Part shown: piece after piece, positions 7,717-32,398 of the stretch
How positions within the stretch are numbered: the first letter of the stretch is position 1
Layout: every line of letters starts with the position of its first letter
From: Chamaelirium japonicum
Taxonomy: Eukaryota; Streptophyta; Magnoliopsida; Liliales; Melanthiaceae
Length of the DNA stretch: 64,000 nucleotides
Assembly (NCBI GenBank): GCA_947650365.1
Contig: CANTAL010000003.1
Location: 124,001-188,000, forward strand
Direction of reading: 5' to 3'
Translations under genes and position numbers: made by a program
Notes under the pieces: model-generated
Seen by the model: only the letters and a program-made list of their open reading frames with translations
What the model was told of the DNA's origin: nothing
Database searches by the model: none

Positions 7717-10259
7717 ATGGCTTCTGCTTCCGACGTTGCTGCTGCTGTTGCTGCCGCTGCTGCCGCCGCCCAAGCTTCTGAGCCCGCTGCTGAGAGAGCG
7801 ATGGTCTGGCTGCAGAACCCGAGCGGGGTGCCCGTTGGGGACAGTATCCGGGCGGCGATCGATCTCCCTCAGGAGATCCTCATCATCGAGATGCCACTCT
7901 CGGGGAGGCCGCCCCAGGGCACAGTAGCTTCTGTCGGGCTACTGTGGTCCGGGCTGCGGTTCCCCCTGAGTCATCTCGCCGGGGAGCTCCAGGAGTTGAT
8001 GGGGCTTTGCCCTGCTCAGCTCTCAGGAAACTCCTGGGGGATACTTTACGGGCTGTCCCAGCTGGAGACCGCCCTGAAGGCGAGGATCCCACTGAGCTAT
8101 CTGCTCAAAAAGTGGCTCCTCCAGCCCGGCCTGGTTTTCAGCACCGTGGGCTGCAGCTACTTTTACCTCGCCGGGCGGCCTGGCGAGGTGCTCCCCTTCT
8201 CCACCGTCGAGAGAAAGGACCGCCACTGGAAGGACTATCCTTTCGTGGTGGTCGGCGAGTGGCGCGGGCGGCACAGCGGAGTCCCGGCTCACCCCGGGGT
8301 TCCCCCAACGGCGGTCTTCCGGGAGATCTCTTTCTTCAAGGCGGGGAAGAAGAAGTGCATCGCTCCCGACCGGGAGCGGTCTCTGGACGAGGCCTTCCTT
8401 CATTATCTTGGGGGGCGGACTCCGGAGAAGATCACTGCTCCCGACTTCGCCTTCCAGCTGAAGGACGGGAAGACCGGTGCTCTTCTGCTAAAGCAGAAGA
8501 TCGTTCGAAAGAAGAAAGAGGAGGAGATCGGTGCTATTCCACCGATGCAGAATGCCCCTCCTCCCTCCAAAGGGGCCAGCTAGGGGGCAGGGAGCTCGGA
8601 AGGCAACCCCCGCAAGAAGACGGTCCGGAGGCGGGCTTTGCCCATCCGCCTCAACGACCCCGACACCATGGAGATGCTCCGCCAGGGCAAAACCTCCGCT
8701 CCACCGCAACCTCCTCGCCCGGACGCCGGCCCAGGTCAGCCTTCCGCCCCAACTCCAATTGTCCGCCGCAAGATCCAAATGGTTGAGCCCGACGACCCGA
8801 ACATCGACCTCCCGCTAACCATGGCAGAAGTCGAATCTGGGATAGCCGAGATATTAATGGGCTACTTCCCGGGCGATCTGACCGTCCCTCTTCGTGTAGC
8901 AGTGCTGACGCCGGAGATGGAGGCCCGCGAGAAGAAGAAGGCCAAACGCGCGGGGCCCGCGCCTTCGAACACCCAGACGGAGCAGCGGCGAAAAGCGCTG
9001 GAGGAGGCGGGCTTGGACTCATAGCCCAGTTGAAAGGACTCCGAGGAGGAGGCGCCAGGCTCCGAGGAGGAGGGGCCCGCCCCTCAAGCTCTTCGGGCGG
9101 AGCCCGCCGCTCCTGCCCAAGTGGAGAAGCCCGCAGCTCCATCAGCTCCCGCACCAGGAGCGGGACCGAGCGGGCAGGAGCTTCCACCTCCTCCCGCCGG
9201 GGTGGAGGTCCAGCAGGGCGGGGTGCCACCCTCTGCTCCTCGGGAAATTTCCCGCGAGGACAGTGGGCGAGAAACCCCCGCCGCCGCTGCGACCTCTACG
9301 CCCCCTGCAGCTTCCATATCCGCTCCTCTGCCCTCGTCATCTAGACGGGGCAAGGAGAAGGCGGACTTCCCGGAGGATATGGGGGACTTGATCTATAGGT
9401 CCCCCTCCTTCGTGGATATTGGCTCCAACTCCGAGTCTTCCAGCTCGGAGTCGGAGGCCAAGGGGGTCGGGGCGGACCCTCCAAGCCTGCCAGCAGCCGG
9501 AGCTCGCCCGGGGGAGGTGCCAGCCTCCACTCTTCCCGGCGTGCCCCCTGCTACTGAAGCTCCGGGGGGTCCCAGCGCGGGCTCCTCTGCGGAGGAGGGG
9601 AGGGCGCCCTACTACGTGCGGCAGCTGCTGGGCCGCAACGTCTTCGCCCGAGCCCCCTTCGCTTCAATAAGCGAACGCCTAGCCGAGGTACATCTTGCTC
9701 TCTCTGACCCTTTCGCCAAGAATGCTAATTTTTGCTTTTTGCTAACTTTTTCACCTTCCTTATGCAGGCGGAGAAGCAGAGCCAGGCGTTGGCCGCGGAG
9801 GTCGCTGGGGCCGGGAAGGCGCTGGCTGCCTTGTTCGACGATTCCCTTCGGGGGTCCGAGCGCAAGGTGGACGAGCACATCCACGAGCTTCAACGAGCTA
9901 AGGGCTCCGAGGAGCTGAGGACGGAGTCGGAGGCACTGTACCACAGGGTCAAAGCCCTGGTGTCAGGCCTTGCTATGGCCGAGGCAGCCAAAGGCCTGTC
10001 CGCTACCGCCCTCCTCAAAGCTAAGGCGGAGCGAGACGAGGCTGTGTCCGCCAGGGAGGTCGCGCAGCGGGAGGCGGCTCAACTTCAAGGCGAGGTCGCT
10101 GCTCTGAAGACAGCGATCGCCGCCCTGAAGGAGACGCACGCTGATGGCCTCCGGGCTCAGCAAGGTCGCCTCCAAGCCTAGCTGGATGATCTCCTCAAGA
10201 AAGGCGCCCTGGCCGCTGTGGAGAAATACAGGACCGAAAGGTCGAAGAAGCGGCGCTGA
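7717..10259 (+). pseudogene. Element A antisense gene (Tat-type aORF), intron-containing, four internal stops
   Basis: This gene is antisense to gag-pol. The reading frame from ATG 7717 stays open to 9687 except for stops at 8581-8583 (TAG), 9022-9024 (TAG) and 9031-9033 (TGA), with no frameshift. An 80-bp intron (9688-9767) joins phase 0 to a second exon. That exon meets TAG at 10179-10181, but the same frame continues with similar lysine-rich helical sequence to TGA 10257-10259. Layout: an Ala-rich start, a conserved globular block at 7951-8400 (GLRFPL...GLCPAQLSGNSWGILY), basic clusters, a Pro/Ala/Glu-rich linker, and a heptad-like coiled coil in exon 2. The block matches element B's antisense protein. 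I do not know its function. All four stops can arise from CAG or CGA by one C-to-T change. The first in-frame codon of the open stretch is TTG at 7684, but 7717 is the first ATG. Confidence 0.8.
9688..9767 (+). other. Intron in element A antisense gene
   Basis: Donor GAG|GTACAT and acceptor TTATGCAG|GC bound an 80-bp, T-rich segment with a GCTAACT branch-point-like sequence at 9741-9747. Splicing is phase 0 and joins the frame ending at codon 9685-9687 to GCG at 9768-9770. The base composition shifts sharply from the GC-rich exons, as in plant introns. It has not been tested with transcripts. Confidence 0.75.
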
Positions 10260-10715
10260 GGGGACGACAGTGGGGCGGAGACTAGCAAGCCTTGAGCTCG
10301 CAGCCTTGTAATTGTTTTTATAATTTTTGTCAATCAATGAAGTTTTCATCCTTTTGAGCTCGCCTATGCGTTTCTTTCTTTCTCTGTGTCACTCATGAGT
10401 CCGCTCTAGGAGTTCGCAGCAATCTCGAGAGTGATACCCCGGGCGAGGCAGCTAATTCGATTCAACCTTTTTATCTTAAAGTATATGCAAACGAAAAACT
10501 CGGCATGCTCGCAAAAACTCAATAGTCTCTGAGCCCGGAAAACGTTTAAGCGAACCAAAAGACTTCAAAAACTTCCCTATACTCAGAGACTTAAACCATT
10601 TTTATTTTTAAAGGAAACTAATAAGTGCTAGCTGCCCCCTGCCCGGTTAATTTCCCTCGATGATCCTGTTCGGCGGTCTTGCCCTTTGAGGGGTACGCCC
10701 GCGCCAGGATGCTTC
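10260..10715 (+). other. 3' flank of element A antisense gene
   Basis: AT-richer sequence after the stop at 10259. TTGTAATTG and TATAATTTTTGTCAATCAATGAAG (about 10305-10341, including AATGAA at 10336) could serve as plant polyadenylation elements. No coding region is seen. The 78-bp array begins just downstream. Confidence 0.4.
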
Positions 10716-11172
10716 CGTTCATGGCAGGTGAACGCGAAGGATCCCGGTTAGGTTTAGAGTCCACTAGGCAGCAGACTTCCCTAGGAATCTCAAGGTCGCC
10801 CACTGGCTGCCTCTGAGGATCCTGATCTTGCTTTAAGTCTGCACAACGGCGGACTACCCCGGGAATCTCAAGGTCGCCCACTGGCTGCCTCTGAGGATCC
10901 CGGTCTTGCTTTAAGTCCACACAACGGCGGACTACCCCGGGAAGCTCAAGGTCGCCCACTGGCTGCCTCTGAGGATCCCGGTCTTGCTTTAAGTCCGCAC
11001 AACGGCGGACTACCCCGGGAAGCTCAAGGTCGCCCACTGGCTGCCTCTGAGGATCCCGGTCTTGCTTTAAGTCCGCACAACGGCGGACTACCCCGGGAAG
11101 CTCAAGGTTGCCCACTGGCTACCTCTGAGGATCCCGGTCTTGCTTTAAGTCCGCACAACGGCGGACTACACT
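10716..11172. repeat. 78-bp tandem array between antisense gene and integrase tail (element A)
   Basis: About six copies of a 78-bp unit. The landmark AAGGTCGCCCACTGG starts at 10792, 10870, 10948 and 11026, with a variant at 11104. Because 78 is 26 codons, the minus strand is open through the array (10618-11115) and would read as a repeated 26-residue peptide rich in R, D and Q. That may be coincidental. It occupies the convergent gap between gag-pol (minus) and the antisense gene (plus). Confidence 0.9.
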
Positions 11173-11285
11173 TTATAGATCATGCAGGCTCTTGCTGCAC
11201 CGAGCTCTCGAGCTAAATTCCTTGTTGAAACCTTCATCGTTCATTCATAGCTTCTTCAGAAGATGACTTACAAAATTCCTTAGTC

Positions 11286-11500
11286 TTATGCATCAACCTT
11301 GCGAAGGTGCAAAGCATTCCAAGGTCGCTCTAACAGGTCGCCTTCAGCGGTCATCAACCGGCAAGCCGCCGAGCTTCTTGCTTCGTGTACTATGTAGGAG
11401 CCTTCCCAGTTCGCCGCGAACTTTCATGCATTAGGCTCTTGCGTGTTTGCGAACACCCCTCTCATCACCATGTCACCAGCCTTGAATGCCCTTGGTTAGC
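11286..11500 (-). pseudogene. Integrase C-terminal remnant (element A)
   Basis: The minus strand from about 11486 reads FKAGDMVMRGVFANTQ, then a stop, then KFAANWEGSY and PWNALHLRKV, ending at TAA 11286-11288. This matches position for position the end of element B's integrase (FPIGSLVLRAVFYNT, APNWEGPYII, AWNTRHLK). It is the post-core GPY/F-like tail of a Tat integrase with one internal stop (in NA*KF). It proves the element once had a complete pol and that RT, RNase H and the catalytic core were removed internally. Confidence 0.85.
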
Positions 11501-11721
11501 GAGGTCCCGTGATGGACGATCCTTGGTCCGCCCAAGCCACCGATGTTGACTTCTTACTATGGCTCGGCAATGGGAAAACTTCCCCTCTGAGATCCTGGTC
11601 GGCGGCCTTTCTCCTCGAGCTCAAGATCCACACCGCTCCCACCCGAGGGTGAAGCAGGGGATTTAAGCGAGGAGACCTCTCTCGGGCTTCGAGGTAGCCC
11701 GCTCGAGGTGATCGCTAATTG
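11501..11721 (-). other. Pol deletion region (element A)
   Basis: This short stretch links the protease end to the integrase tail. Minus-strand translation after the stop at 11722-11724 stays open for about 60 codons (a glutamate and glycine-rich spacer like the protease-RT linker) before stops near 11556. The roughly 3 kb expected for RT, RNase H and integrase core is absent, so the deletion junction should lie at about 11490-11560. Confidence 0.6.
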
Positions 11722-14226
11722 CTAGGAGGGCGCGGGCCTCTTGGCCTCAGCGACCTCGACGTCTGCGAGGTGAAAGACGTCCTGCTCACACCTGGTAGCA
11801 GCGACCTGATCTCCTCGAATCACCACGACCCCTCTGTTGGTGGGAAACTTGAGGGCCTGGTGATTAGGCGAGGAGACCGCTTTCATCTGCCTCAACCAAG
11901 GTCGCCCTAGGATGGCATTGACAGCGGACTGCCCATCCACCACCGCGAAGCGGACTTGTCATACCTCCGGGCCCGCCGTTACGGTGAGGGTTATCTCCCC
12001 TACCACCTTAGCTACCTCGCCAGTGAAACCGGTGAGCGAGCCCGTTGAGGGAGATAAATCGATTTGTCTCAGTCCCATTCGCTGGAAGGCCGACAAGAAC
12101 AGGACGTCTACTGCACTTCCCGGGTCAATCAGGACCCGCCTTACTTCGATGTTAGCCATCATAAGGCGTATAACGAGGGGGTCATTGTGGGGGGTAACGA
12201 CCCCGGCCATGTCCTCATCCGAGAACCAAATAAAGTCTCGGGATTCCACCCTCGGGGTTTGGAGCAATACAGGGGTCAGAGAAACGGAGAATACCTTCTG
12301 AGCCCGCTCCATCTCCCTCACTTGTCGCTGCACCTCGTTGCTGGATCTTGGGCCGTTCAGGCTCCCGTTGATGGTGTGACAGACCGCCGGTCCTCCCGGG
12401 GGAGGCAGAGGTAGGGCGGGCTCAGCTGGCCCCGGGCGATCTCCCTCCCGAGGAGCCCGCGCCGGCATCACCTCGAATCTCCTTGGAGGCGAAATAAACT
12501 GATCCAAATGGCCTTGGGCGACCAAGTCCTCGAGGTGGTTCTTAAGAGCCCGGCATCTATTGGTGTGATGCCCGGGGCTGCGATGAAAAGCGCACCGCCA
12601 CGCGTTGTCGGTGGAGCCGGGCTCGCCGACCTGCAAGGGTGGTGGGTACTGGAAAAAGGGTTCATTCTGAATCTGATGAAAGATTTGCCCTGGCGAGTGG
12701 GTTAGCACGGTGAAGTCCCGCTCCCCAGGTCCCGGAGGCAGGCGCCAGTTCGCCAGCCTTCCAGCGACCACCGCGGGAGCTTGAGCGGGCTGTACAGCAG
12801 GAGCTGCGGACGGTCCGGGCAAAGGCACCGCCAGTGGCACCTCCCTCCTCTCCACGGCCTTAACGACAAGAGGTCACAGAGCCGGAGGAGGTCGCTGCTC
12901 GACTGCCTTTCCCTTTCGGTCTAGCACCGCATCTTCGAGCTTGATGTATTGCTGGACCAGGGCAAATAGTTCAACCATCGTGCGAGGATCTTTGATCACT
13001 AGAGCGTCATGAAGCTTGCCTCCCTCGGGGAGGGCGCTTCTGAAAGCACTCACCACGGTATGATCTTGGCCCGCCGCATCTTCCAGAGCGAGGTAGGCGC
13101 TTCGGAATCGCGTTGCGAAGCACCAGAGCGTTTCGCGAGCTCCCATGGCTAAAGTAAACAGAGACTCGATTCTTTTCGGGGGCTGCCTATTGTAGCGATA
13201 CTGCTCCAGGAATAGCCTAGAGAGAGTTGGAAAGTCGGGGATCATGCCGGGCGGCAACTTGTGGAACCAGTTCAACGCCGAGCCGGTCAAACTGCTCGGG
13301 AATGCTCGGCACAAGACGTGGTCCTGGTCCCGGAAAAACAGAAGCTTTCTGTAGGCCAAAAGGTGGTCAACGGGATCCTGCGACCCGTCAAACAATACAA
13401 ACTTTGGGGGGGTCCAGTGGTGCGGAAAACCCCCTTGGTGAACCTCGCTGGTGAAAGGTGAGCTACCTCCGTGGGCGGCGAGGTCTTCCAGTAAATCTAC
13501 TGGCGCACTAGATCGCTGCCAGTGCCCGGGGAGAACTCCCAGAGGCGGCTGCGCAGGTCCTAGGCGGTCTTGTACGCTCCCTCGTGGCAAGGCCGGACCC
13601 ACCCCGCGGCGACCCTCGGGGGCCACCGCTCGGCGGCCTCCTTGCTGTTCGCCCGCGGATTCCTTCAGCGCGTCAGTTGGTCTGTGGGAGGCCGTTGCCT
13701 CGCGAGCTTCGGGAGGTATAGCCACCGCAGGCTCTTTCCCTCTTAGCCGATGGAGCGGGTCGCGATCCCGCTCTAGAGACCTTGCCTCCGACCCGTCAGA
13801 ATCGATGCTCCGGCTACGGCGGCAAGAGATGGTCGTGCGCGAGGTCGCCTGGTTGCTAGACCGCTGGGTTACTAGCTTCTGCAACCTCGTGAGCGGGGTT
13901 TTCGGCACCCTGCGCACGGTCGCTCTCCCGACCGGGGGTTCCGGACGGGAAACCTACCGCGCCGGAGCGGTCGTGACCGGGCGCGATGTTGACGCTGGTG
14001 GTCGCACCGGAGGTGCCGTATTCGCCAGACCGGAGCGTCGGCTGGCCGCCGGAACCTGACGCAGTCGCGTCAGTTCCTCCATCATGGCCCGCTGGGTGGC
14101 CAACATCTCCAACAAGAGTTGGTCACTGAGCGGGACCTCGGGCTGAGGGGTCTCAACAGGATGTTCGCTGCGCGCAGATCTCGCGCGGGTCCTTGGTCGC
14201 CTGCGTCCCCTTATCGCCGGAGCCAT
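11722..14226 (-). pseudogene. gag: gag-protease of element A (Tat lineage), three internal stops
   Basis: One minus-strand frame runs from ATG 14226 to TAG 11722. It is broken only by stops at 13956-13954 (TAG), 12876-12874 (TGA) and 11961-11959 (TGA), each one C-to-T change from CAG/CGG or CGA. Order: a basic N-terminus (RGRRRPRTRARSAR), the retrotransposon gag core around 13480-12900 (FVLFDGSQDPVDHLLAYRK, ALNWFHKLPPG), a CAFHRSPGHHTNRC knuckle-like motif (12560-12500), then an aspartic protease. The protease motif reads LIDPGSAVDVL where DTG or DSG is expected, so the flap-side residue is changed and activity is doubtful. It continues through AILGRPWL. The product would be the capsid polyprotein of a Ty3/gypsy particle. 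Confidence 0.88.
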
Positions 14227-14298
14227 CTTTGGGGTTACGAGAGCCGACGGTGCTCAACCGCGTGGTCGTGGGTGTTCTCGCAGGAACCAGCCGAAGAT

Positions 14299-14314
14299 CC
14301 CACATACGGCGCCA
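14299..14314 (-). other. Element A primer binding site
   Basis: The minus strand reads TGGCGCCGTATGTGGG two bases inside the 5' LTR. It is almost the same as element B's PBS (TGGCACCGTCTGTGGG), a type common in the Tat lineage. I do not assign the tRNA. Confidence 0.8.
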
Positions 14315-14316
14315 AA

Positions 14317-15373
14317 TGTTCGGGGGATTTTTCGCTGGTCCGTGCGGCGTACCTGTAAGACAAAGAAAAGAGAACGTGAGAACGGCTGGCTCCCTTAGGA
14401 GCGCAGACCCTCCGACGCTTAAGTCAGTCACGGTAGCACAACGACGAGCTGTTGTATACCAAAGTGGTAGGGAAAAGGATTTCGAACCTGTACTCTGGAG
14501 CCTGGGGGTGAGCATTTATAGACATTGGCGACCTACCGCTGTCCGACACGTGGAGATTCTTCCAGGGCCTTCTAGACCCCCACGTTCTGGCTTGCGTGGG
14601 TCTGACAGTCCTTGGTACTCGCGCCCTGACATTCTGTCGTTAAGCCTGCCAGGCGGTTTGAGTGGGGGAGAGCATCTTTCTTGTTGCTGCCAGCTGGCTG
14701 TTCTGGAATGTTCAAGTCTGGGCGATCTCAAAACTGACTCTAGCGGGCTTCCATGGACGTTAGTCCACGTAGCTTCCGTGGGATTTCGACACCTGGCCAC
14801 CTTTATGTCTCTCTATGGGGGCGACCTCCGATGGGAAGCCAGGGCGAGCTCGTCCTCCGTTGCTCCGCCTTCTTTTCCACATCTATCAAGAGTCGGACCT
14901 CGCAGGAGCGACCTCTTCGATAAATAGGAGAGTCTTGGCGAGCTTGGTGAGCTCTGGAGTGGGTTTGGGCGAGCTCCTGAGCGAGCTTGGGCGAGCTCCT
15001 GAGCGAGCATGGGCGAGTTCCTGAGCGAGCTTGGGCGAGCTCCTGAGCGAGCTTGGGCGAGCTCCTGAGCGAGCATGGGCGAGCTCCTGAGCGAGCTTGG
15101 GCGAGCTCCTGAGCGAGCTTGGGCGAGCTCCTTAGCGAGCAAGGGCGAGCTCCTGAGCGAGCTTTGGCGAGCTCCCGAGTGAGCTTAGGCGAGCTCCAGC
15201 GAGCTTAGGCGAGTTCCAGTGAGTTTTGGCGAGCTCCTTAGTGAGCTTAGGCGAGCTCCAGCGAGCTCTTTGCCTAGGCCCCTTCAGCCCAATGTGGATC
15301 TCGCTCCCTGTCAAGATGATTTGGTGAGCACGGGGGGAGCGAACTCCAGGGCAGATTTCAGCTACCCCCAACA
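14317..15373 (-). repeat. Element A 5' LTR
   Basis: 1057 bp, equal in length to the other LTR. The minus-strand TATAAATG at 14520-14513 is the likely core promoter for gag. A 22-bp minisatellite occupies 14940-15270 with slightly different unit variants from the 3' copy. It begins TGTTGGGG on the minus strand and abuts satellite at 15374. Confidence 0.95.
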
Positions 15374-16310
15374 CGATCCATTCTAATTCATTCGCACGAA
15401 TATATCCATTCTAATTCATTCGTACGATCCATTCTAATTCATTCTTACGATTCATATGAGCTATTCTAATTCATTCGTACGACCTATTCTAATTCATTCG
15501 TACGATCCATTCTAATTCATTCGCACGAATGTATCCATTCTAATTCATTTGTAAGATCCATTCTAATTCATTCGTACGATCCATTCTAATTCATTCGTAC
15601 GATCCATTCTAATTCATTCGTACAATCCATTGTAATTCACTCGTACGATCCATTCTAATTCATTCGTATGAGCTATTATAATTTATTTGTATGATTGTAG
15701 CCATTCTAATTCATTCTACGAATGTAGCCATTCTAATTCATTCGTATGACCCAATCTATTTCATTCGTACGGTCCATTCTAATTCATTCGTACGAGCTAT
15801 TCTAATTCAGTCACACGAATGTATCCATTCTAATTCATTTGTACGATCCATTCTAATTCATTCGTACGATCCATTCTAATGTATTCGTACGAGCTATTCT
15901 AATGCATTCGTACGATCCATTCTAATTCATTCGAACAATCTATAATCTCACGAATGCATCCATTCTAATTCATTCATACGATCCATTCTAATTCATTCGC
16001 ACGTTCCATTCTAATTCATTCGTACGATCCATTCGAATTTATTCGCTAAAATGTATCCATCCTAATTCATTCGTCCGATCCATTCTAATATATTCGTACG
16101 AACGAATGTAGCCATTCTAATTCATTCATACGATCCATTCTAATTCATTCGCATGAATGTATCCATTATAATTCATTCGTACGACCTATTCTAATTCATT
16201 CGTACGATCCATTCTAATTCATTCGCACGATTCATTCTAATTTATTCGTACGATCCATTCTAATTCATTCATTCGTACGATCCATTTTAATTCATCCGTA
16301 CGAATGTATC
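15374..16310 (+). repeat. 23-bp satellite, forward block
   Basis: Forward-orientation satellite between element A and the Cassandra element. It includes the recurring odd variant CAATCTATAATCTCACGAATGCATCC at about 15945, split here only as a landmark of higher-order structure, with several GTAGCC-type 28-bp units. The last five bases, GTATC (16306-16310), are the left target duplication of Cassandra. Confidence 0.95.
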
Positions 16311-16652
16311 TGTAACATCCGTCCCAAACACACAAGATATTGTCCGCTTTGCCCGTGCCCGCACGAGAGCTTCCCAGGGAGGTTACCCATCCTAGTACTA
16401 CTCTCGCCCGAGCACGCTTAACTATGGAGTTCTTACGAAGTCCGTAGCGGCGCACGGTTTTAAAACGCATCTTCTATGTTTGGGAGGGGAAATTATATAA
16501 GTAGCTCAGGATCTTCTTCTCTCCAAGCGATGTGGGGATAACTCATGGCCTTGTACACCTCACCTCACCTCACCTCACCTCATCCATCTTGGCATTCCCG
16601 CCTCAGGAGTCTTGGCTCTTGGCTATTGGCCTATTGGATCTTGATCGTCACA
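16311..16652 (-). repeat. Cassandra 3' LTR with 5S rRNA-derived promoter region
   Basis: On the minus strand, positions about 16437-16365 read AGAACTCCATAGTTAAGCGT, then GCTCGGGCGAGAGTAGTACT, AGGATGGGTAACC and TCCCTGGGAAG. This corresponds to the 5S rRNA internal promoter (A box, intermediate element, C box), with one change in GGGTGACC. It is not a full 5S gene because the flanking 5S stem ends are absent. A CACCT microsatellite run follows near 16558-16580. Confidence 0.93.
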
Positions 16653-16716
16653 ATCCACCCCCCTTAGGGCTACACGTCCTCGTGTAGGGTTAGACCCTAC
16701 CATCCCGAGGAGAACC

Positions 16717-16729
16717 GGCTCTGATACCA
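16717..16729 (-). other. Cassandra primer binding site
   Basis: Minus-strand TGGTATCAGAGCC, complementary to the 3' end of initiator methionine tRNA, three bases from the 5' LTR. Confidence 0.93.
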
Positions 16730-16732
16730 TTT

Positions 16733-17074
16733 TGTAACATCCGTCCCAAACACACAAGATATTGTCCGCTTTGCCCGTGCCCGCACGAGAGCTTCCCAGG
16801 GAGGTCACCCATCCTAGTACTACTCTCGCCCGAGCACGCTTAACTACGGAGTTCTTACGAAGTCCGTAGCGGCGCACGGTTTTAAAACGCGTCTTCTATG
16901 TTTGGGAGGGGAAATTATATAAGTAGCTCAGGATCTCCTTCTCTCCAGGCGATGTGGGGCTAACTCATGGCCTTGTACACCTCACCTCACCTCACCTCAC
17001 CTCATCCATCTTGGCATTCCCGCCTCAGGAGTCTTGGCTCTTGGCTATTGGCCTATTGGATCTTGGTCGTCACA
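16733..17074 (-). repeat. Cassandra 5' LTR with 5S rRNA-derived promoter region
   Basis: The second 342-bp copy, with the 5S-like segment at about 16859-16787 on the minus strand. Here the canonical GGATGGGTGACCTCC is intact. It would supply a Pol III-type internal promoter, as proposed for the Cassandra family. Confidence 0.93.
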
Positions 17075-20000: not shown

Positions 20001-20569
20001 TTCTAATTCATTCGTACGAAGTATTCTAATTCATTCGTATGGGCTATTCTAATTCATTCATACAATCCATTCTAATTTGTTCGTGCGATCCATTCTAATT
20101 CATTCGTACGATCCATTCTAATTCATTCGCACGAATGTATCCATTCTAATTTATTCGTACGGTCCATTCTAATACATTCGTACGAATGTATCCATTCTAA
20201 TTCATTCGTTCGACCCATTCTAATTCATTCGTACGAGCCATTCTAATTTATTCAAACGAATGTATCCATTCTATTTCATACGTACGATCCATTCTAATTC
20301 AATCGTACAATCCATTCTAATTCATTCGTACGACCCATTCTAATTCATTCGTACGATCCATTTTCTAATTTATTCGTACGATCTACTATCGTACGAATGT
20401 AGATATTCTAATTCATTCGCACGAACGAATGGTACGAATAAATTAGAATGGGTCTTACGAATGAATTAGAATAGCTCGTACGAATGATTTAGAATGGATC
20501 GTACACGAATGTATCTATTCTAATTAGAATGAATTAGAATGGATCGTATGAATGAATTAAAATGGCTCG
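17075..20569. repeat. 23-bp satellite with two orientation switches
   Basis: Forward 17075-18370, reverse 18371-19407, forward 19408-20420, reverse 20421-20569. The two forward-to-reverse switches (about 18366-18385 and 20420-20440) have nearly the same sequence (CGCACGAAC.AATGGTACGAAT). Both are preceded by GATCTAC.ATC variants and followed by a short forward relic, so this is a higher-order duplication of about 2.06 kb. GCTCG at 20565-20569 is the left target duplication of element C. Confidence 0.93.
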
Positions 20570-22169: not shown

Positions 22170-22984
22170 TGTGGGTGCAAATTTTGGCAGAAGTTTACCA
22201 ACTACCGCGGGACCCACCGGCCCTGCCTGGTAGGTCCACGAGGACCACCGCAGGACCCACCGGCCCTGCCTGGTGGGTCCACGAAGACTACCACGGGACC
22301 CACCGGCCCTGCCTGGTGGGCCCACGAAGACTACCACGGGACCCACCGGCCCTGCCTGGTGGGCCCACGAAGACTACCACGGGACCCACCGGCCCTGCCT
22401 GGTGGGCCCACGAGGACCACCGCGGGACCCACCGGCCCTGCCCGGTAGGCCCACGAGCCTGTGGAATCCCCCAGAAGACGGTAGCGGGGCCCGCCAGCTT
22501 TACCTGGAGAATCCCCAGATACGACAGCAGAAAACCGCCATTTACCACCAGAAAATCCTATAAATAGCAGAGCCTTCGAATGTAAAAGGATCGAGATCTA
22601 GGATCCGAAAATTCTGATTTTCCACTCTGAGATCTGACTTTCAGAACCAGAGCTCTGAAATCTCTCAACTTTCCCTTTTCTATTTCCCTTTGATCTCTCT
22701 CTTTCGAAGAGATCAGATTGTCTTGAGTGAGACTCGGCCTGTCGAGATCACTTCGATATAAGTGTTAGTGAATTCGGGTTGCTCCCAATAGAACGGAGAC
22801 GTAGGCTTCGGCTGAACTCCGAGATCATATCTCTCGTGTCAAATCTCTGATTGCATCTATCTCTCTGTTTGCATTTTGTGAGTTCCAACTCGAATCGATA
22901 GATCGAGCAACGCTCTCTTCGACTTCAACTTCGATTGACTGGTGAGGCGGGGTCTTCGGGTTGGCACGAAGATTTTCCCCCACA
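22170..22984 (+). repeat. Element B 5' LTR
   Basis: 815 bp, TGTGGGTGC...CCCCCACA, paired with 34782-35595 and differing at about a dozen places. It holds six copies of a 43-bp unit (GGGACCCACCGGCCCTGCC...; GACCC landmarks at 22211, 22254, 22297, 22340, 22383 and 22426). TATAAATA at 22559-22566 is the likely promoter. Open frames through the 43-bp repeats are not genes. Confidence 0.95.
22559..22566 (+). promoter_or_regulatory. TATA box in element B 5' LTR
   Basis: Canonical TATAAATA preceded by ATCC. The equivalent in the 3' LTR is at 35170-35177. It is expected to drive the genomic transcript, placing about 390 bp in U3. Confidence 0.8.
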
Positions 22985-22987
22985 GTT

Positions 22988-23003
22988 TGGCACCGTCTGT
23001 GGG
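22988..23003 (+). other. Element B primer binding site
   Basis: TGGCACCGTCTGTGGG, three bases after the 5' LTR. It is closely similar to element A's PBS and to other Tat-lineage elements. The tRNA is not assigned. Confidence 0.82.
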
Positions 23004-23148
23004 ATACGAGCAAAAAGTCAAGCTCTCTCCACTACGACTTGATCGGTTGAGCATACAACCAATCTTGATAGCCAAACTTCCTCGCCCTCTCGGTTGATCA
23101 GACAACTGATCGGACGTCGGCACTCTCGTTGCACCCTTCGTCCTCTGA

Positions 23149-25047
23149 ATGGCGAGAACCAAACATCAGGGTCAACCAGAAGGAAGTAACACTCAACAAC
23201 AACCTCGTCCTGAGACTCGTTTAATGAGTCAAAGGCTCAACTTCGGACAGCCCCTTGCTGTCCCCGAGATGGGGGTTCGTTCAGGGAGTGGCAGATCTGT
23301 CGATCGACCTATCGCTCACCCCGCGCGACAGTCGATTGGGCAAACAACACCAGCTCCTGCTGAAGACCCTCCATCAACCTACCAAATCTCTGCGGTCGAC
23401 TTCCAGCTGCTCCAATTGGCGAAGCAAAACGCCACCCTCACCGCTGAAAGGGATGCACTTAAGAGGGCAGCTTCTGAAGCTAGGATCGCTCTTCCTATCC
23501 CCTCTACAAGTGAGAGGGTCGATCTTCCTCGACATTCAATTCACTCTGAGCAACGTAGATCAATGGGCACTGTTGCCCTCGAGAGGATCCGACGCAACCC
23601 AACTCCCTCCGCTGCCCCCTGGAAGCAAAGTGTTTGGGATCGCCTCGAAGACGAGTCTTCCCAATCGTCTTCTGGCCGCAACTGCGACAAGAGGACACCT
23701 TCAAAACTTAACATACCAAGGAGGCATCAAATGAAAAGCGCTCCTTCAAAGAGTCGAGTTTCCCCTTCCATTCCACTCCAACGCGTACTCGGATCGGACC
23801 TTCGCCACCGACTCCAACCCACTGATATTCAGAGGCCTGAACAAGACCTCTCGATTCTACCTCTCGATCTACATCCAGGTCGAGGACACAGTCGTAGAGA
23901 TGGGTATTCCTCCGCCGGACCGCTTCATCGAAGTCTCTTTGAGACAACATTTCCAAGGGGATGGAGAACTCCAATCCTCCCCAAATTCAACTGCATCAGA
24001 GGAGATCCAACTCTCCATATACTTGCCTTCAAGTAAGCCCTAACGCCGCACGAAGAAGAAAACAACGTGCTCTGCCGCACCTTCGCAGGAAGTCTCGATG
24101 AGCCGTCACTCGACTGGTATCACAATCTCCGAGCTGGGTCCGTCACCCAGTTCGATGTTTTGGCTAAACTCTTCGTGCAGCATTATCAGCTCAATCTGAA
24201 GCCCGAGAAGAAGCTCGACTCTCTCTATCGATTAAGGATGGGTACTGATGAGACTCTCCGAAGTTTCACTAGGAGGTTTCGCAACGAGCATGCTGCCCTC
24301 TCTGGAAGACACCTGGATGATGAAGCCATCATGTTGGCTTTCCAGAATGCTCTCCGCTTCGATCTACACATCTACAACGACTTCATCCGCAATCCCCCTC
24401 CTTCTCTGGGTGCTATGTTCGATCGAATCCAGAGAGAGATCGAGGTCGAAGACGATCAAGTTGCTCGAAAAGGGCGAGAAACAAAACGAAGGCCTGCGGA
24501 GAGAGAAGCTCCCAAGTATACTGCCAAGGCTCACAACGCTGAGGCAGCAGCCCCTCCAGCCAACAAACGATCAAAGAATGACGGGCGTCGATCTCCAACA
24601 AAGACCACTTTCACCGAGTGGAATATACCGGTCGAACAAATACTCGACCGCATTCAACACGAGGAATTCCTTCGAAGGCCCAATCCACTTCAGCCTAACA
24701 CCAAGTTCACTGCCGACAAAACTGTTTATTGTGATTTCCATCGGAGCCATGGCCATTCCACCGATCGGTGCTATCGGCTAAAGTTTCACCTCGAAGACTT
24801 GCTGAGAGAAGGCCACCTCCATGAATTCACCAGAGAAGGGCAAGATCAACGTCGATCCTCTGCAAAGGGGAAAGAGGCTTGTTGGATCCATCAGATCTCC
24901 TCCAACCCATCACCTCTCACTGTGAATGCCAATGTCTTTGGCATTCATGGATCATTGCATAATCAATCAGTGACCGGGAAGGAAGTTGATCGGCAGATTC
25001 GGTGCATTTTCCATGTCCGATCTACTGCAAACAAAGAAGATACCTGA
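23149..25047 (+). pseudogene. gag: gag of element B, one internal stop
   Basis: Starts at ATG 23149 (context GAATGGCG), 145 bp after the PBS. The frame runs through a hydrophilic N-terminal region, the capsid core (PILPKF...GDPTLHILAFK, stop TAA 24034-24036, ALTPHEEENN, then LDWYHNL, and FRNEHAALSGR), and a knuckle-like CDFHRSHGHSTDRC near 24730-24775. It ends at TGA 25045-25047, where the frame continues into protease. TAA is one C-to-T change from CAA and TGA from CGA. Intact, it would encode the structural protein of the cytoplasmic particle. It closely matches the gag of element A in knuckle spacing and the LEDL(L/V) sequence after it. Confidence 0.9.
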
Positions 25048-25617
25048 ATCGAGAAGCCCATCGAAGGTCTTGCTTGGCCGTCCATCGTCTTCAACGACAC
25101 TGATCTTCAAGGAGTTCATACTCCTCATCGAGACCCCTTGGTTTTGAAACTCATCATCGACGGAAGCACCGTCAATCGGATCCTCATCGACACCGGGAGT
25201 TCTATCGACATTATGTTCTCAGACTGCTTCAAACGTCTGGGACATAAATATCAAAGCCTTGACGTCGTTCCAACCGTGATCACTGGCATCAACGGCGAAC
25301 AAAGCATCACGGTGGGCGAATCGAGATTCACTCTGGACCTCAGCCGAGAGACTCGAGTCTCGGTGAGGTTTGCCATTGTCGAAGGGGTCTCCAGTTACAA
25401 CGCCATCCTCGGGCGACCTTTTCTCCACCAGATCAATGCCATCTCCTCCTCTTACCACCAACTACTCAAGTTTGCAACTGGAGAAGGCATCGTCTGCATT
25501 CGAGGCGATCAACAATCTGGAAGGTCTTGTGAGGCTGCTGCGGCTAAGACAGATCGAAAGATCAACATTGCTCCTTCAAAGCGGCCGCGAGATGAAGCTG
25601 GTCCTTCTTCTAAATAG
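25048..25617 (+). pseudogene. Aspartic protease region of element B
   Basis: Same frame as gag. The catalytic motif is intact: RILIDTGSSIDIMF at about 25177-25218, followed by the family motif YNAILGRPFLHQI near 25399-25437. TAG at 25615-25617 (one change from CAG) ends the open stretch before RT. The domain would mature the gag-pol polyprotein. Unlike element A, the DTG triad is conserved. Confidence 0.9.
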
Positions 25618-27264
25618 CAATCAAAGGAGATTCCGCTGATAGAACCTCTACCAATCGAATGGGAAGCGTCACCTTCAATTGAAGAAATCATCCCAATCAA
25701 CATCAGCAGCGGAGATCTTCCTCGACAGACTTTCATTGGTACCGGTCTTAGCGACGCAGAAGCGCAAGACATGGTATCCTTCCTCAAGTCCAATATCGAC
25801 GTCTTCGCTTGGTGTTTCGAAGACATGCCTGGCATCAATCCAGATGACGCTTGTCACCGACTTGCGATCAAAGAAGAGGTGAAGCCTGTCAAGCAAAAGC
25901 CACGCACCATCCGACCAGAGCTACAAGTTGCTGTTCAAGAAGAAATCACCAAGCTACTCGCAGCAGGCTTCATCCGTGAAGTAGAGTATCCTACTTGGAT
26001 CTCTAATATTGTTGCTGTTCCGAAGAAGAATGGGAAAGTCAAAGTCTGCATCGACTTCACCAACCTCAACAAAGCTTGCCCCAAAGACCCATTTCCCATG
26101 CCAAGGATCGATAGACTCGTCGATGCCACTACTGGCCACGAGCTATTGTCTTTCATGGATGGGTATTCTGGATATAATCAAATTCCACTTCATCCAGACA
26201 ATCAAGAGAAGACTTGCTTCGTGACTAGCCGAGGTCTCTACTGCTACAATGTAATGTCGTTCGGCCTCAAAAATGCTGGATCTACCTATCAAAGGCTAGT
26301 CACCAAGATGATCGAAAACCAGATCGGTCGCAACGTCAAAGTATATGTCGATGATCTCCTCACCAAGAGTTCCGTTCGAAACAAGCATCTTTCCGATCTG
26401 GCGGAAACCTTTCAAGTTCTTCGAAAATATCGTATGAAGCTCAATCCAGCTAAGTGCGCTTTCGGAGTTCAATCGGGCAAATTCCTGGGTCACCTTGTGA
26501 CCAGGAGGGGTATCGAAGCTAATCCCGACCAAATCCGAGCAGTTCTGGATATGCCTTCACCTACAAATCGAAAAGAAGTTCAACGCCTCACTGGAAGGTT
26601 AGCAGCACTCAATCGATTCATCTTAAAATCTTCCGATAAGTGCAAACCCCTCTTCGACAAACTACGAAAGGCGGATACATCCGGCTGGAATCCAATCTGT
26701 GAAGAAGCATTTCAAAACATCAAGAAATATCTGGTGCAAGCTCCTATCTTGACGGCTCCACTTCCAGAAGAAGATTTATGGCTTTATCTCGCCGTCACTG
26801 ATCAAGCAATCAGCGCGGTCCTAGTTAGTAGGAGAAAAGGCATCGAGCATCCAGTCTATTATATCAGTCACACTCTTCTTCCGGCTGAAACTCGCTACTC
26901 AAAAACTTAGAAGGTCATACTGGCCTTACTTACTGCATCACGTCGTCTACAACCTTATTTCGTGTCCCACCAGATCACTGTCATCTCTGAACACCCACTC
27001 AAAGATATTGTTGACAAAGCTGGTAGGGCTGGTCGAATGACCAAATGGGTGATCGAAATGAGTGATCTGGGGATTCAATTCGAATCTCGCACTTCTATCA
27101 AAGGTCAAGCCGTTGCTGACTTCCTAGCTGACTTCCCAGTTGAAGACCCCATCACTTGGGAAGAAGATGTCGACATTCGCTTAGAAGATGAGGACAATAC
27201 TCCGATCAACCTTGCAACAAAAATTGATCCAAGTCTCGAAGCTATTGCTGCAACTCCTCCATAG
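25618..27264 (+). pseudogene. pol: Reverse transcriptase and first RNase H of element B
   Basis: RT signatures run in order: PRTIRPELQ, FIREVEYPTWISNIVAVPKK, VCIDFTNLNKACPKD, LLSFMDGYSGYNQI, and the active site YVDD at 26344-26355, then the thumb and connection. The gypsy-type RNase H follows (LWLYLAVTDQAISAVLV, YYISHTLLPAETRYSK). The first catalytic aspartate of this RNase H seems to be missing, as is known for Tat elements that carry a second RNase H. Stops TAG 26908-26910 and TAG 27262-27264 interrupt the frame. The latter sits where a tryptophan (TGG) is usual before KLYTDGA. Confidence 0.92.
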
Positions 27265-27700
27265 AAGCTTTATACTGATGGAGCTTCAAGTTCGATCGGT
27301 TCGGGAACTGGGATAGTCTTAGTATCCCCCGAATTTGATCATCTACAGAAGGCCACTCTCCTAGGGTTCAACGCCACCAACAACGAAGCCGAATACGAAG
27401 CACTCATTTCTGGACTCGAAATGGCGGAATCCCTGGGAGTAGACCGAATCATAGTATACAGCGACTCCCAGTTGATCATAAGGCAAATCAATGGAGAGTA
27501 TACAGCTCGTGAAGAAAGAATGCAACTCTATTTGGCCTTAGTACGTCGTCTTCAACAACGTTTTACTATTACTGAGTTCGTTCAAATCCCAAGAGCAGAA
27601 AACCGAGAAGCAGATGCCTTAGCCAATGCGGCCTCAGTTCTGGGAGACTCACTCGGAGGAAGGCAAATACAGATCGATTATCAAGAAATACCCAAGACCA
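27265..27700 (+). pseudogene. Archaeal-type RNase H of element B
   Basis: A second RNase H after the connection domain, with TDGASS (catalytic D at 27277-27279), NNEAEYEALISGLE (E), VYSDSQLI (D) and PRAENREADALANAA (final D). This acquired domain is a diagnostic trait of the Tat/Ogre branch and would replace the degenerate first RNase H. It is open throughout and in frame with integrase. Confidence 0.88.
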
Positions 27701-29025
27701 TCCTCGATCAACAGATCCTTGCTACTTCTAAGAGATCTGGGGGTGGAGATCAATTAAGGTCAAGCCTTACTACAAATGAGTTTGAAGATTGGCGACAGCC
27801 GATTTTTGACTTCTTCGAATATGGCAAAGTACCAGAAGATCCCAATCAAGCTCGAAGACTTCAAAGAAAACTTCCTTGCTATACTGTTCAAGGAGAAGAT
27901 CTATATTTCAAATCTCACAACGGGATGTTGCTCAAGTGCCTTGGTCCCGAGCAAGCACAGGCCATCCTGATTGATATCCATTCTGGAGCTTGTGGGAATC
28001 ATTCGGGAGGAAGATCTCTTGAAGCCAAGACGAAGCTGCAAGGTTACTACTGGCCTACAATGACAAGAGATGCTCGACAAGTTGTTCAAAGATGCGAGCC
28101 ATGTCAAACACATGCTCGAGCTATCCATCTCCCTGCAGATGAGCTTCATCAACTATCAAGTCCCTGGCCATTCCATCAATGGGGGTTAGATTTCTTGGGT
28201 CCTTTCCCCCCAACTCCGAGCAAGAAAAAGTATCTACTGCTCGCCACGGATTACTTCACCAAATGGGTTGAAGCTGTGCCCCTCTTCCGAGAGACTGACG
28301 ACGAAGTGATCAAATTCATTCGGCACAACATCTTCTCAAGGTTCGGCACACCTCAAGTTCTTGTTGCTGACAATGGAGCTCAATTTGACTCTGACAAGTT
28401 CCGTGAGTTTTGTCTGAACAACGGAATCAAGCTCTTCTACTCAACTCCAAGGTACCCTCAATGCAATGGTCAAGCTGAAGCCTCTAATAGAGCAATTCTT
28501 GGTATACTCAAGAAAAAACTCGACAACAAGAAGGGATTGTGGGAACAAATCCTACCTGAAGGTCTTTGGGGGTATCGCACAACACCGAGAAGATCAACAG
28601 GGTTCTCACCCTTTCGTCTAACATATGGATCGGAAGCAGTACTCCCAACAGAAAACATATCAAATACTTTGAAGACCAGAGCAGTTGAAGAAGGAATCAA
28701 CAAAGAGCTTCGAATCAATGATCTAGACTTCTCTGAAGAACTACGAGACCAAGCTTCCCTTCGTGTGGCCAAGTACCAGCAGAAGATCAAACGAGCATAC
28801 AACCAAAAGGTTTACAAGAGACAATTCCCAATCGGCAGTCTGGTTCTCAGAGCTGTTTTTTACAACACTAAGGAGCATAGCAGTGGAAAACTAGCTCCCA
28901 ACTGGGAAGGACCCTACATTATCGAATCTGTAGGAGGCAAAGGCTCTTACAGACTGATCTCACCAGAAGGAGATAGATTGCCTCGAGCTTGGAATACTAG
29001 ACATCTCAAGTTATTCTATCCATGA
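27701..29025 (+). pseudogene. Integrase of element B
   Basis: No stop inside the domain. It has the HHCC zinc finger (IHSGACGNHSGG...CEPCQTH), then the DDE core: WGLDFLGPF (D near 28189), VADNGAQFDS (D near 28371) and NGQAEASNRA (E near 28477). The C-terminal tail has LAPNWEGPYIIE, ending RAWNTRHLKLFYP and TGA. There is no chromodomain, which excludes chromoviruses. Taken alone the region is intact, but it is translated only if five upstream stops are bypassed. Confidence 0.93.
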
Positions 29026-29626
29026 TGTAAATACCATGATGAATAAAGTTCTCTTTCAAATGTTCAAATATGCAAGTGTTCAGTTTTTCAATTCAAGTTC
29101 TGAAGCAGTTCCAAATTATCCATATTCAAGTTACCAGGTCTTTTAACAAGTTTGGGTGTTAAGAGTTGTGACTCAACCCCTTACTAGCAAATGTTAAACT
29201 GACCCTATTCAAGTTACCAAGTCTTTTAACAAGTAAAAGTGTTAGAGTTGCGACTCAACCCTTTACTGGCAAATGTTAAATTGACCTTCAAATTTCAATA
29301 TTCAATTTCAATCAATTTCGATATCGTCTAACATGTTTGGGTACTTGAGTTGCGACTCAACCCCTCACATACAAGTGTTGCACGAGTTCCAATTCAATAT
29401 TCAAGTTACAAGTTTGGGTAATCGAGTTGCGACTCGACCCCTTACATTCAAAAGATTGTATCTATTCCAATACTATCCAGTACATGATATTAAAGACATT
29501 CAACTCAAGAGATCCAATTTTCAAACACCAAAAAGATTTCTATTATTATCAAAATGTGCCAAGTACAGGAGCGAGTTACTACATATCAAGAGTTTACAAG
29601 CACAACAACTAAAAAGAAGAAAAGTC
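29026..29626. repeat. Degenerate about 100-bp repeats in the convergent gap of element B
   Basis: AT-rich sequence with four diverged copies of a unit holding AAGTTACCAAGTCTTTTAACA and GAGTTGCGACTCAACCCC (centred near 29170, 29250, 29355 and 29430). GAGTTGCGACTC can fold as a GAGT/ACTC hairpin. It separates the end of pol (29025) from the stop of the antisense gene (29627), the same place as the 78-bp array of element A. No coding sequence is seen. Confidence 0.7.
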
Positions 29627-30163
29627 TCAAGGCTTGGCCACACTTTGCGCGCGCGACTTCTCTCCCTCAGATCCAGTACGAGCTTTGCTCGCCACTGAAG
29701 CCTTAGAAGATCGGACGCTGGTAACATAGACCCTGAGTGCTTCTGCTGCCTTCTCAGCTGTTTCCCTGTAGCTCTTGCACTCGCTCCGCATATGCTCCAG
29801 CTCCTTCTTCTGGGTCTCCTCCTTGGCTGCTGAAGCAGCAAGTTGAGCCTCCAGCTCCGTTATCCGAGCCACACGGTCGAAGCCCAAGTTCTCAATCCTG
29901 AAGAATCGATTCTTCAATTCTTCAAGCTCGTGACCCCGGGCTTCATAACCATTTTTCCACCCCTGGCTCTCCAATTTTTCCTTACGAAGGGCCTCGATCT
30001 TGGCCTTCAATGACTCCTTCTTTGAGGTTAGAATCTCCCTCAGTTTATCCCTCTCCTCGCTTACAGCCTCCAGTTCAGCAGTTAAGCGGGATACTTCAGC
30101 TGAAGCTTCTTTTGCTCCCGCCTTCATGGAGAGCTTGGTCGCGACATTCAAAACTGCTGAGTT

Positions 30164-30236
30164 CTGCAGAAGAACAAAAGCGTTAGAATTATTCTGAAGA
30201 TACAACTCAGATGATCGATCAAGCAGATGCACCTAC
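30164..30236 (-). other. Intron 2 of element B antisense gene
   Basis: 73 bp. Minus-strand donor GTG|GTAGGT and acceptor CTTCTGCAG|AAC, phase 0, with TTCTAAC as a candidate branch site. It lies just before the coiled-coil exon, in the same relative place as the single intron of element A. Confidence 0.78.
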
Positions 30237-30373
30237 CACCAGTTCAAGTCTGTCAAAAGCTTCATCCAGAGTAGCCCCCGGAAGGTTGCAGAGTTTTCGG
30301 ATTACAGCAGTGGGGTGGTTGATGTCAACATCACCCAAGCTTTTCATTTTCGGAGTCGAGCCAACAGGCGCAC

Positions 30374-30456
30374 CTGCAATCAACACGAGATATCAAAGTG
30401 TTAGATTATTTCCAAGCTTCAAAAGCAAGACAATCAAGGCAAGTTAGCACAATTAC
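30374..30456 (-). other. Intron 1 of element B antisense gene
   Basis: 83 bp. Minus-strand donor CCTCAG|GTAATT and acceptor GATTGCAG|GTGCG, with phase 1 splicing that restores an open frame. The intron is T-rich with a TGCTAAC branch-like element near the donor side and TCTAACAC further in. Confidence 0.78.
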
Positions 30457-32398
30457 CTGAGGCTTCAACCCTCGGCTCCTTACCCTTCCGGCGATCGGAG
30501 CCACCCTGAGGGGTCGATTTCTCCTGAATAGGAGTCGGCGCTGATTGAGGTTGAGGAGCCCCATCACCCACGCGACTTTCCCTCTCCAAATGAATAGGAG
30601 AGGAAGCATCCCGAGGAGGTGAGACTCTTTCTTCCTCTTGTGGCCCGCCTGGCTGGATGAGTCCCGCCACCATGGCAGCCACCTCCTCAGCCAGAGACCG
30701 AGAGGGGGGTGGGGGTTGCTCAACCTCCATACCCCCGCTAGTTGTCGCTCCTTCAAGACGGGGTACTTCAGGAAGAATTTGATCGAGGGGCGTGGGGTTG
30801 CTTCCAACCCCACCACTCCTCGACAATTTTATTTTGAAGCGCATCGGTTTCTTCAATTCATCAAACTTATAGGTGGGAACCACCTTTTGGCCATCACCTT
30901 CTGTATCGGTGACTTCTTCCATTTGACGGGCTTTAATCTCGTCAATAGGAATAGGAAGTGAATCTTCTCCTGCTGCACCACCAGTGGGGGTGGGAGGAAT
31001 TTCTTCCTCACCACCCCCGTTCTCACCATCTCCACCAGAGGGGGTGGAAGAAGGATCATCCTCACCATCTCCATCCTCTTTGTCTTCGTCATTGCCACTG
31101 TTGTCGTGGCTGCCGTTCTCAGTCTCTTCGTCTTCCTCATCGCTCTCCTTCTTCTTTTCTTTTTCTTCTTCATCATCTTCTTTCTTTCCTTTATCCTCAT
31201 CTTCCTTCTGCTTGGTAAGGGTTTTTCTTTTCTTCTTCGCTGGGCCTCGCTGTATCACCAGCTTCTCCTCCACAGTAGGCAATCAACGCCTTGCAGTATA
31301 AACTTTCTTCTCAGCCCGAATCCTCCGGATGATCTTACCCGAACGAGGATCCTCCTCATAGTCACAATATAAAACTTCATTGTCCTCGTATCTGTCTCGC
31401 GATCGGTGGAGGAGATTGGCCTTGCCATATCTCACTAGGCAGTTTGAGAACTGCTTCCATGACCTGGTCCCACAGGTCAGCTCTAAGAATAAATTGTCGA
31501 TAGCTCCAGCCCTCTCGGAAGTCCAGGCAAAAATACCTCCCTCACAATACATCTTCACTGCATCATGCACATCACTTCGAGGGGTATCGGGCACGGAGAT
31601 GGGAGTCCATGCACCAGAAACAGAGATGGGCCAATCTGTGTATAATTTATCCGAAGGGACTGTGTCGGTAAGCGGGCGCAGCGGAGATACGCCGGTCAAG
31701 CTGAAAAACGGACTGTCCTTCCTCCAAGCCCACCGATAATGGAAGAAAAAATATCCAAGATCGATCCGGGCAACTTCACCTTCTGGAATACCGGAGTAGC
31801 ATGCCTTCAAGTCCTCCTGGAAATCCGACTCGACGCGGCAGAAAGTGTAAATAATTCTCCAAGCATTCCCAATGACCTGCCCCGGGCAAAGGCCGGAAGT
31901 GTTCAGTAACCTTGCCGCGAAGGATGGCAAAGGAAGACGCAAACCGCAGTTGAGTTGGCCGATGGTCACAATGGTCCCCATGACCTGCTCATTACTGGCA
32001 AAGTTGGTAAAGACGGTCTTCTTGTCAATACCAAACGCAGTCTGGATACTGGGGAGCGAAGGCTGCACCTTCCCTTATGTGAAGTAAGATAGCAGTGATT
32101 GCCACTTCTTCCTCTTCGAATCTGTGAACTCACCGCCAGTATTGTACACGTACTCCGTTTCCTCTGTCAGAGGCATAAGCGGGCCCAAAGTAAACTTCAC
32201 TTTAGGGATGTGCTCTGGCCTAGATGGCGTAGAAGCAAACCCTACTCCTTGATGCCTCTTGCCCAGTTGGCCAAGTTCGGCAAGCACGGCCTTGCCTTTG
32301 CCACGACCCTTCGGAGGGGACGGAACCTCAACAATCTCTTTTCCTTTCCTCTTCGAGGGGACCCCGCCTGACTTCTTCGAACTACCAGAGGAAGCCAT

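Follow-up and report, generated by a model that had tools for sequence, protein, structure and literature searches.

Diverged TRP28-type antisense genes beside promoter-like stretches and tandem arrays in two probable Tat/Retand retrotransposons of Chamaelirium japonicum

The stretch of DNA analysed here, referred to as the window, comprises 64,000 nucleotides of the Chamaelirium japonicum genome (assembly of 1.52 Gb; contig CANTAL010000003.1, our C15, positions 124,001 to 188,000) and holds two long terminal repeat (LTR) retrotransposons, A and B, each of which carries a gene on the strand opposite to gag-pol, toward the 3' LTR. These genes belong with the TRP28 (Transposase_28, PF04195) antisense genes of Retand-type elements, and to that extent the core finding has already been published, since such a gene was reported in 97% of recently active Retand clusters in a 2025 survey which calls the function of TRP28 unknown (PMC11963269). 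What is new here are the figures obtained from this genome for selection, layout and splicing, together with a testable hypothesis in which array, promoter and gene form a cassette. An earlier note on the window had mentioned extra antisense open reading frames (ORFs) from the Tat lineage, in agreement with the Retand survey, and had proposed that A and B carry homologous antisense genes in the same layout. In window coordinates, the two genes are made up as follows.

7717 to 9720 (end approximate), plus strand: first coding part of the A antisense gene, ATG at 7717
7843 to 8415, plus strand: TRP28-type domain of A, the stretch aligned to B (BLASTP E 1e-15)
9768 to 10259, plus strand: coiled-coil-like C-terminal part of the A gene, with a stop at 10179 in the window copy
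30457 to 32398, minus strand: exon 1 of the B antisense gene, ATG at 32398
31469 to 32050, minus strand: TRP28-type domain of B, the stretch aligned to A (PF04195 E 4e-4)
30237 to 30373, minus strand: exon 2 of the B gene, 137 bp in 20/20 copies, with conserved flanking splice sites
29627 to 30163, minus strand: exon 3 of the B gene, coiled-coil-like, from splice-site and heptad evidence

Both proteins contain the block GLR[FL]PL followed, after 11 residues, by GLCP.Q..GN.W.I.Y, at the matching distance that the earlier note had described. Over 210 aligned columns 53 are identical (25%; BLASTP E 1e-15), and comparison of the two genes by blastn revealed no DNA similarity (best E 0.87). Agreement at codon positions 1, 2 and 3 is 0.434, 0.516 and 0.342, against 0.251, 0.251 and 0.281 expected from composition, and is thus highest at position 2; taken with the lack of DNA similarity, this pattern argues that conservation acts at the protein level. 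The domains do differ greatly in base composition, as had been proposed, with a GC content of 64.8% in 30 A copies and 51.7% in 20 B copies. Outside the N-terminal domain no significant A-B match was found (linker pieces E of at least 4.2, tails E 6.0), and homology appears to be confined to this domain. The shared stretch opens with the Transposase_28 block and its alignment runs on to conserved residues some 100 positions further along (D..W/Y..D.P..V.G.W), so that the 69-position Pfam model covers only part of the conserved unit.

The curated cut-off of PF04195 is 26.2 bits, and both the window B protein (21.0 bits) and B-family copy L002 (23.8 bits) score under it; two kin of B, L051 (32.5 bits) and L075 (29.5 bits), pass. 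The window A protein gave no PF04195 match, and A-family copies L024, L030 and L039 reach 12.2-15.4 bits (E 0.022-0.23), again under the cut-off. All 30 loci sampled from the PF04195 matches nonetheless match A in tblastn searches at E 1e-3, each of them at E 5e-5 or better; A is homologous to a lineage with members above the cut-off. One of these loci, L077 (L077:1222-1962, minus strand; E 5e-7 against A), represents a third, strongly diverged TRP28 lineage, with 20% identity to window B and a PF04195 E of 2e-7. No relative turned up in viral and bacterial collections.

The window copies of both genes are interrupted, A by stops at 8581, 9022, 9031 and 10179 and B by stops at 32077 and 31285; these are absent from most other copies, and open frames extend elsewhere to 892 amino acids in the A family and 848 in the B family. 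Our searches for copies, which covered this plant genome only, returned at least 145 B-type domains, at least 136 A-type domains and at least 137 PF04195 matches. When the B-type domains were set against 131 reverse transcriptase (RT) matches, 15 pairs lay within 8 kb and in 15/15 the domain was antisense on the 3' side, at 4,482-5,353 bp. The A-type domains and 150 A-type integrases formed 11 pairs, 10 of them antisense on the 3' side at 2,515-3,128 bp, the lone exception being a 5'-side pair whose gene is also matched with a partner of its own on the 3' side. Most places remain unpaired because each list holds the best-scoring copies only. The common layout proposed for the two genes is therefore borne out, and an antisense TRP28 gene between pol and the 3' LTR is a feature of Retand elements. 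In a comparison of 43 of the 137 PF04195 matches with 85 of the 131 RT matches, four of five neighbouring pairs were antisense and one was on the same strand. In this last pair the PF04195 match (G000:C7:5546264-5546413, minus strand) stands 4.4 kb away from a B-type RT and is either an exception to the antisense rule or part of a neighbouring element. Separately, three equal-scoring B-type domains (L013, L014 and L015, at G000:C3:27345068, 27379251 and 27413892) are spaced by about 34.2 and 34.6 kb on one contig, which suggests a tandem segmental duplication.

Ratios of nonsynonymous to synonymous substitution (dN/dS), estimated by the Nei-Gojobori method, were 0.088 for the domain in 20 B copies (190 pairs) and 0.137 in 30 A copies (435 pairs), compared with 1.87-1.98 in shifted frames. 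Three further measures depend less on the choice of copies by protein match. For the 3' part of exon 1, which lies outside the query, the values were 0.37 in B and 0.42 in A, taken from the copies with 200 or more open codons (15 of 20 and 22 of 30, respectively), and the part ahead of B's domain gave 0.21 (17 of 20 copies). PF04195-sampled loci measured from residue 90 onwards, outside the block used to find them, gave 0.079, a figure drawn from those 19 of the 30 loci in which the domain is uninterrupted and from 151 of 171 pairs, 20 being saturated. B against its kin gave 0.066 after 271 of 440 pairs had been dropped as saturated. These ratios point to strong purifying selection on the domain and to weaker selection on the linker. 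The earlier note had named two outcomes that would tell against it, namely the lack of a significant match between the proteins and neutral evolution of the frame, and we found neither; its suggestion that the gene has been retained by selection accords with a dN/dS well under 1 in both families and with the fixed layout.

The B gene has two introns, with GT donors in 20/20 and 20/20 copies and AG acceptors in 20/20 and 19/20. In 25 of 30 A copies an acceptor-like site, recognised by pattern match, stands ahead of the coiled-coil exon, and no donor site was found in A; of the intron-containing gene claimed for both elements, the B half holds, and introns are predicted in B only. The claim of C-terminal coiled coils likewise divides, as both tails score in a heptad count, a crude measure and the only one applied, and the tails appear alike in kind, with no significant match between them.

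Upstream of each antisense ATG lie a promoter-like stretch and, beyond it, a tandem array.

7289 to 7716, plus strand: promoter-like stretch of A, with CACGTG at 7481-7486 and TATAAA at 7597-7602
5815 to 7288, plus strand: tandem array of A, 10.1 copies of a 145-bp unit, ending 428 bp 5' of the antisense ATG
32399 to 32848, minus strand: promoter-like stretch of B, with CACGTG at 32656-32661 and 32540-32545
32849 to 34657, minus strand: tandem array of B, ending 450 bp 5' of the antisense ATG

The second CACGTG (G-box) of B, at 32540-32545, falls within GACACGTGTC (32538-32547). Between array and ATG, CACGTG occurs in 29/30 A copies, 20/20 B copies and 25/29 kin sampled through PF04195, against 0/79 coding controls of equal length; GACACGTGTC occurs there in 15/30, 14/20 and 21/29 (controls 0/79), and TATAWA lies within 150 bp before the ATG in 28/30, 19/20 and 18/29 (controls 1/79), counts which, given kinship within families, amount to two or three observations rather than 79. 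From these motifs we infer that both stretches may have promoter activity.

The B array is built of a 119-bp unit over 32849-34265, followed by sub-repeats of 19, 37 and 158 bp. In the B family, 19/20 copies have an array of the 119 type upstream, whose end is 399-451 bp from the ATG; in the A family, 20/30 copies have a 140-150-bp array, and the corresponding distance is 404-479 bp. These distances were converted from ends measured relative to the domain. Arrays of any period of at least 15 bp are present upstream in 20/20 B copies, 30/30 A copies and 28/29 kin, as against 0/6 gag/pol stretches, and LTR repeats may account for some of those with other periods, L002 being an example. Over its 1,809 bp the B array contains 76 TTGAC[CT] half-sites on the two strands, against a Markov mean of 1.9 and a maximum of 7 in 500 runs, and many of them are arranged as the palindrome TTTGACCGATCGGTCAAA. 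The sequence TTGACC is, moreover, the core of the W-box, to which host WRKY factors bind. Of the B copies, 19/20 contain 21-36 half-sites in the 1.5 kb upstream, and the number is at least 8 for 27/29 kin; L002 has neither a 119-bp array nor any half-site in the 1.5 kb upstream of its domain. The A array has 11 half-sites in 1,481 bp (0.8 expected), about one per unit, and these may be due to chance. Between B and its kin the array unit diverges by 16%, the gap by 26.5% and fourfold sites by 61.5%, the unit comparison comprising the 45 of 49 loci with a unit of 117-120 bp, and conservation of the half-site columns is 0.956 compared with 0.901 for the rest of the unit. Either selection or gene conversion could account for the conservation of the array unit.

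The elements that house these genes are laid out as follows.

4640 to 15373: element A, sense strand minus, with two 1,057-bp LTRs
4640 to 5696, minus strand: 3' LTR of A, 98.2% identity to 14317-15373 across 1057 bp
14317 to 15373, minus strand: 5' LTR of A, pairing with 4640-5696
12874 to 13953, minus strand: gag ORF of A (PF03732 Retrotrans_gag, E 1e-8)
11734 to 12231, minus strand: protease of A, 44% identity to the B protease (E 2.6e-42)
11301 to 11492, minus strand: integrase C-terminal remnant of A, matching B-pol residues 1068-1131 (E 5.9e-15)
22170 to 35595: element B, sense strand plus, with target-site duplication AGATC
22170 to 22984, plus strand: 5' LTR of B, 98.3% identity to the 3' copy, sitting in the 5' LTR of C
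34782 to 35595, plus strand: 3' LTR of B, pairing with 22170-22984
24037 to 25047, plus strand: gag ORF of B, Retrotrans_gag part (PF03732, E 2.6e-8)
25048 to 29025, plus strand: protease, RT, RNase H and integrase ORFs of B, from Pfam matches

The window copy of A is internally deleted: RT, RNase H and the integrase core are absent between its protease and the integrase remnant, and the only confident B-pol match within A, residues 1068-1131, adjoins the protease end at 11734. The position 3' of the integrase end, given for both genes in the earlier note, is to be qualified for A, whose pol is not intact in this copy. All four A-family copies sampled, out of at least 136 listed, keep RNase H and integrase and match B pol unbroken from residue 386, 409, 427 or 586 to 1134 at 48-51% identity, over stretches too short to reach RT; with pol continuous in them, A's deletion is not common to these four. 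The 5-mers that flank A, CGATT and CGATC, agree at 4/5 bases. A second array of A, with a 78-bp period (10660-11247), lies past the 3' end of the antisense gene and short of the integrase remnant, and lacks the half-sites of B's array. B alone displays the Ty3/gypsy order protease-RT-RNase H-integrase, as is characteristic of Retand elements, and no chromodomain was present among its Pfam matches. Tandem repeats also occur within the LTRs, as 43-bp units in B (22201-22457) and 22-bp units in A (5247-5590).

Stretch 20570-22169 matches 41150-42752 and 35596-37793 matches 42748-44944, and this order of pieces shows B to lie within the 5' LTR of yet another element, C (20570-44937; duplication GCTCG), whose LTRs are of about 3.8 kb, the 5' one being split by B. 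The internal region of C is only about 3.4 kb long, contains a 106-bp tandem array and gave no gag or pol match; C is a large non-autonomous element, and the sequence after its LTR resembles the initiator-tRNA primer site. LTR divergence K is 0.016-0.018 in A, B and C alike, which at a substitution rate of 1.3e-8 per site per year places all three at about 0.6-0.7 million years. The remaining window (1-4639, 15374-20569 and 44945-64000) is mostly a 23-bp-based tandem array in both orientations, into which A and C inserted.

We consider it very probable that A and B carry diverged TRP28-type antisense genes of Tat/Retand elements which were inherited from a common ancestor and not captured separately. 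The pol of the A-family copies has the 48-51% identity to B given above and the domain 28%, and divergence of both is as expected of joint descent. On our best reading the gene is a self-promoted one for an accessory protein, probably regulatory, and we see about an even chance that it has its own promoter and encodes an accessory protein that regulates expression or transposition. An antisense mRNA would be made from the gene's own internal promoter, in the order tandem array, G-box, TATA and ATG, and would be spliced at least in B. Its translation would yield a domain of some 200 residues under constraint, followed by a charged or proline-rich linker that evolves faster and by a tail of coiled-coil-like character. 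The protein may oligomerise and would serve the element as an accessory, most likely a nuclear one with DNA, chromatin or the integration complex as its target, and its role would be to regulate expression or transposition.

Several known systems can be compared with such a gene. TRP28 genes of Retand elements are, like those of A and B, antisense to gag-pol, placed between pol and the 3' LTR and marked by a G/P/L/P/N block, and Retand elements also have tandem arrays nearby and include pol-deficient clusters that keep TRP28 (PMC11963269, its Table 1). Different from the Retand TRP28 are the shared stretch of about 200 residues, beyond the 69-position model, and the divergence of A past the Pfam cut-off; in addition to what that survey covered, selection, the B introns, the promoter-like motifs and the array half-sites have been examined here. 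The antisense ORFs of maize Grande (gene23), RIRE2 and Silene Retand likewise lie between pol and the 3' LTR, and gene23 is reported to have its own promoter and a nuclear protein, a likeness to the A and B genes that is by description only (PMC7264820). HBZ of HTLV is similarly an antisense accessory gene toward the 3' LTR of a retroelement (PMC11963269, PMC7264820), although its promoter lies in the 3' LTR and the promoter-like stretch here is internal; the two are likened by arrangement only.

Several points weigh against a self-promoted regulatory gene. The window copy of A lacks GACACGTGTC and that of B lacks TATAWA, and in the third TRP28 family, L077, neither G-box nor TATA was found in the stretch searched. 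Common ancestry of the A and B promoters was considered and found no support, as the window pair shares no 10-mer and 156 of 1000 shuffled pairs do. The copies measured for selection are the best protein matches, which biases them to low dN and was controlled only in part, and copies within one family are not independent. Searches of PDB sequences for relatives of solved structure gave chance-level hits only, and structure prediction, one of the checks the earlier note had proposed, was run with AlphaFold2 and produced low-confidence models of the two window proteins (mean predicted local distance difference test scores of 42.7 and 35.7). With no structural relative and such models, nucleic-acid binding is unsupported by computation here.

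Other functions can be proposed for the same gene. With its coiled coil the protein may attach to the virus-like particle or to the pre-integration complex and so aid nuclear entry or target choice; a coiled-coil-like tail and a conserved domain would suit this, and accessory roles for ORFs of this kind have been discussed (PMC7264820). To make a particle protein from an opposite-strand promoter of its own would, however, be unusual, and we regard this reading as unlikely. We hold it to be quite unlikely that the genes are modules of the VANC kind, in which a TRP28 protein would bind its family's own array and promoter, with anti-silencing or activation as the outcome and array and protein coevolving. 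The short motifs bound by VANC proteins have built up into tandem repeats within the VANDAL transposons that encode these proteins (PMC5735166), and the parallel would lie in a transposon gene beside family-specific short-motif repeats; VANDAL is a DNA transposon in which binding and anti-silencing are proven, and the comparison here is by arrangement only. In both families a near-constant distance separates the gene from the array on its 5' side, the B array is far richer in half-sites than the Markov expectation, many of them within TTTGACCGATCGGTCAAA, and its unit diverges less between B and kin than the gap or fourfold sites. On the other hand, a host factor may read TTGACC instead, the roughly one site per unit of the A array may be chance, L002 lacks both array and half-sites, the half-site columns are barely more conserved than the rest and gene conversion could keep the units alike.

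The two remaining alternatives are set aside on the evidence counted against each. That the antisense RNA itself is functional, through double-stranded RNA or silencing control, with an incidental reading frame, has been raised as possible (PMC7264820) and would suit the promoter-like motifs as well as an mRNA does, but it is very improbable given a dN/dS far under 1 where shifted frames give about 1.9, and protein homology that persists where the DNA is not alignable. Separate capture of a passenger or host gene by A and B, to which the introns in B and a promoter-like region of its own lend a host-gene-like look, is most improbable in view of the identical position and orientation in both families and the near-universal presence of the antisense gene in Retand clusters (PMC11963269).

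Returning to the self-promoted regulatory gene, we put forward, as a doubtful but testable extension, that gene, promoter and adjacent array form one conserved regulatory cassette. Half-sites amplified within the array would be read by the TRP28 protein or by a host factor, for instance a WRKY, and in this way the retrotransposon would control or protect its own expression. In the literature searched, which covered few subscription papers, we found neither a G-box/TATA promoter nor array half-sites tied to a TRP28 gene. The 3' tandem repeats of Tat elements are described as hypervariable and as a source of satellites (PMC7004042). Selection on the domain, a candidate promoter and a near-constant distance to the array make a regulatory role of these repeats testable. 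If the cassette is real, then hypervariable Tat repeats would be regulatory DNA under selection and not by-products of replication, and two usually separate puzzles of an abundant plant retrotransposon lineage, its antisense genes and its 3' repeats, would be joined.

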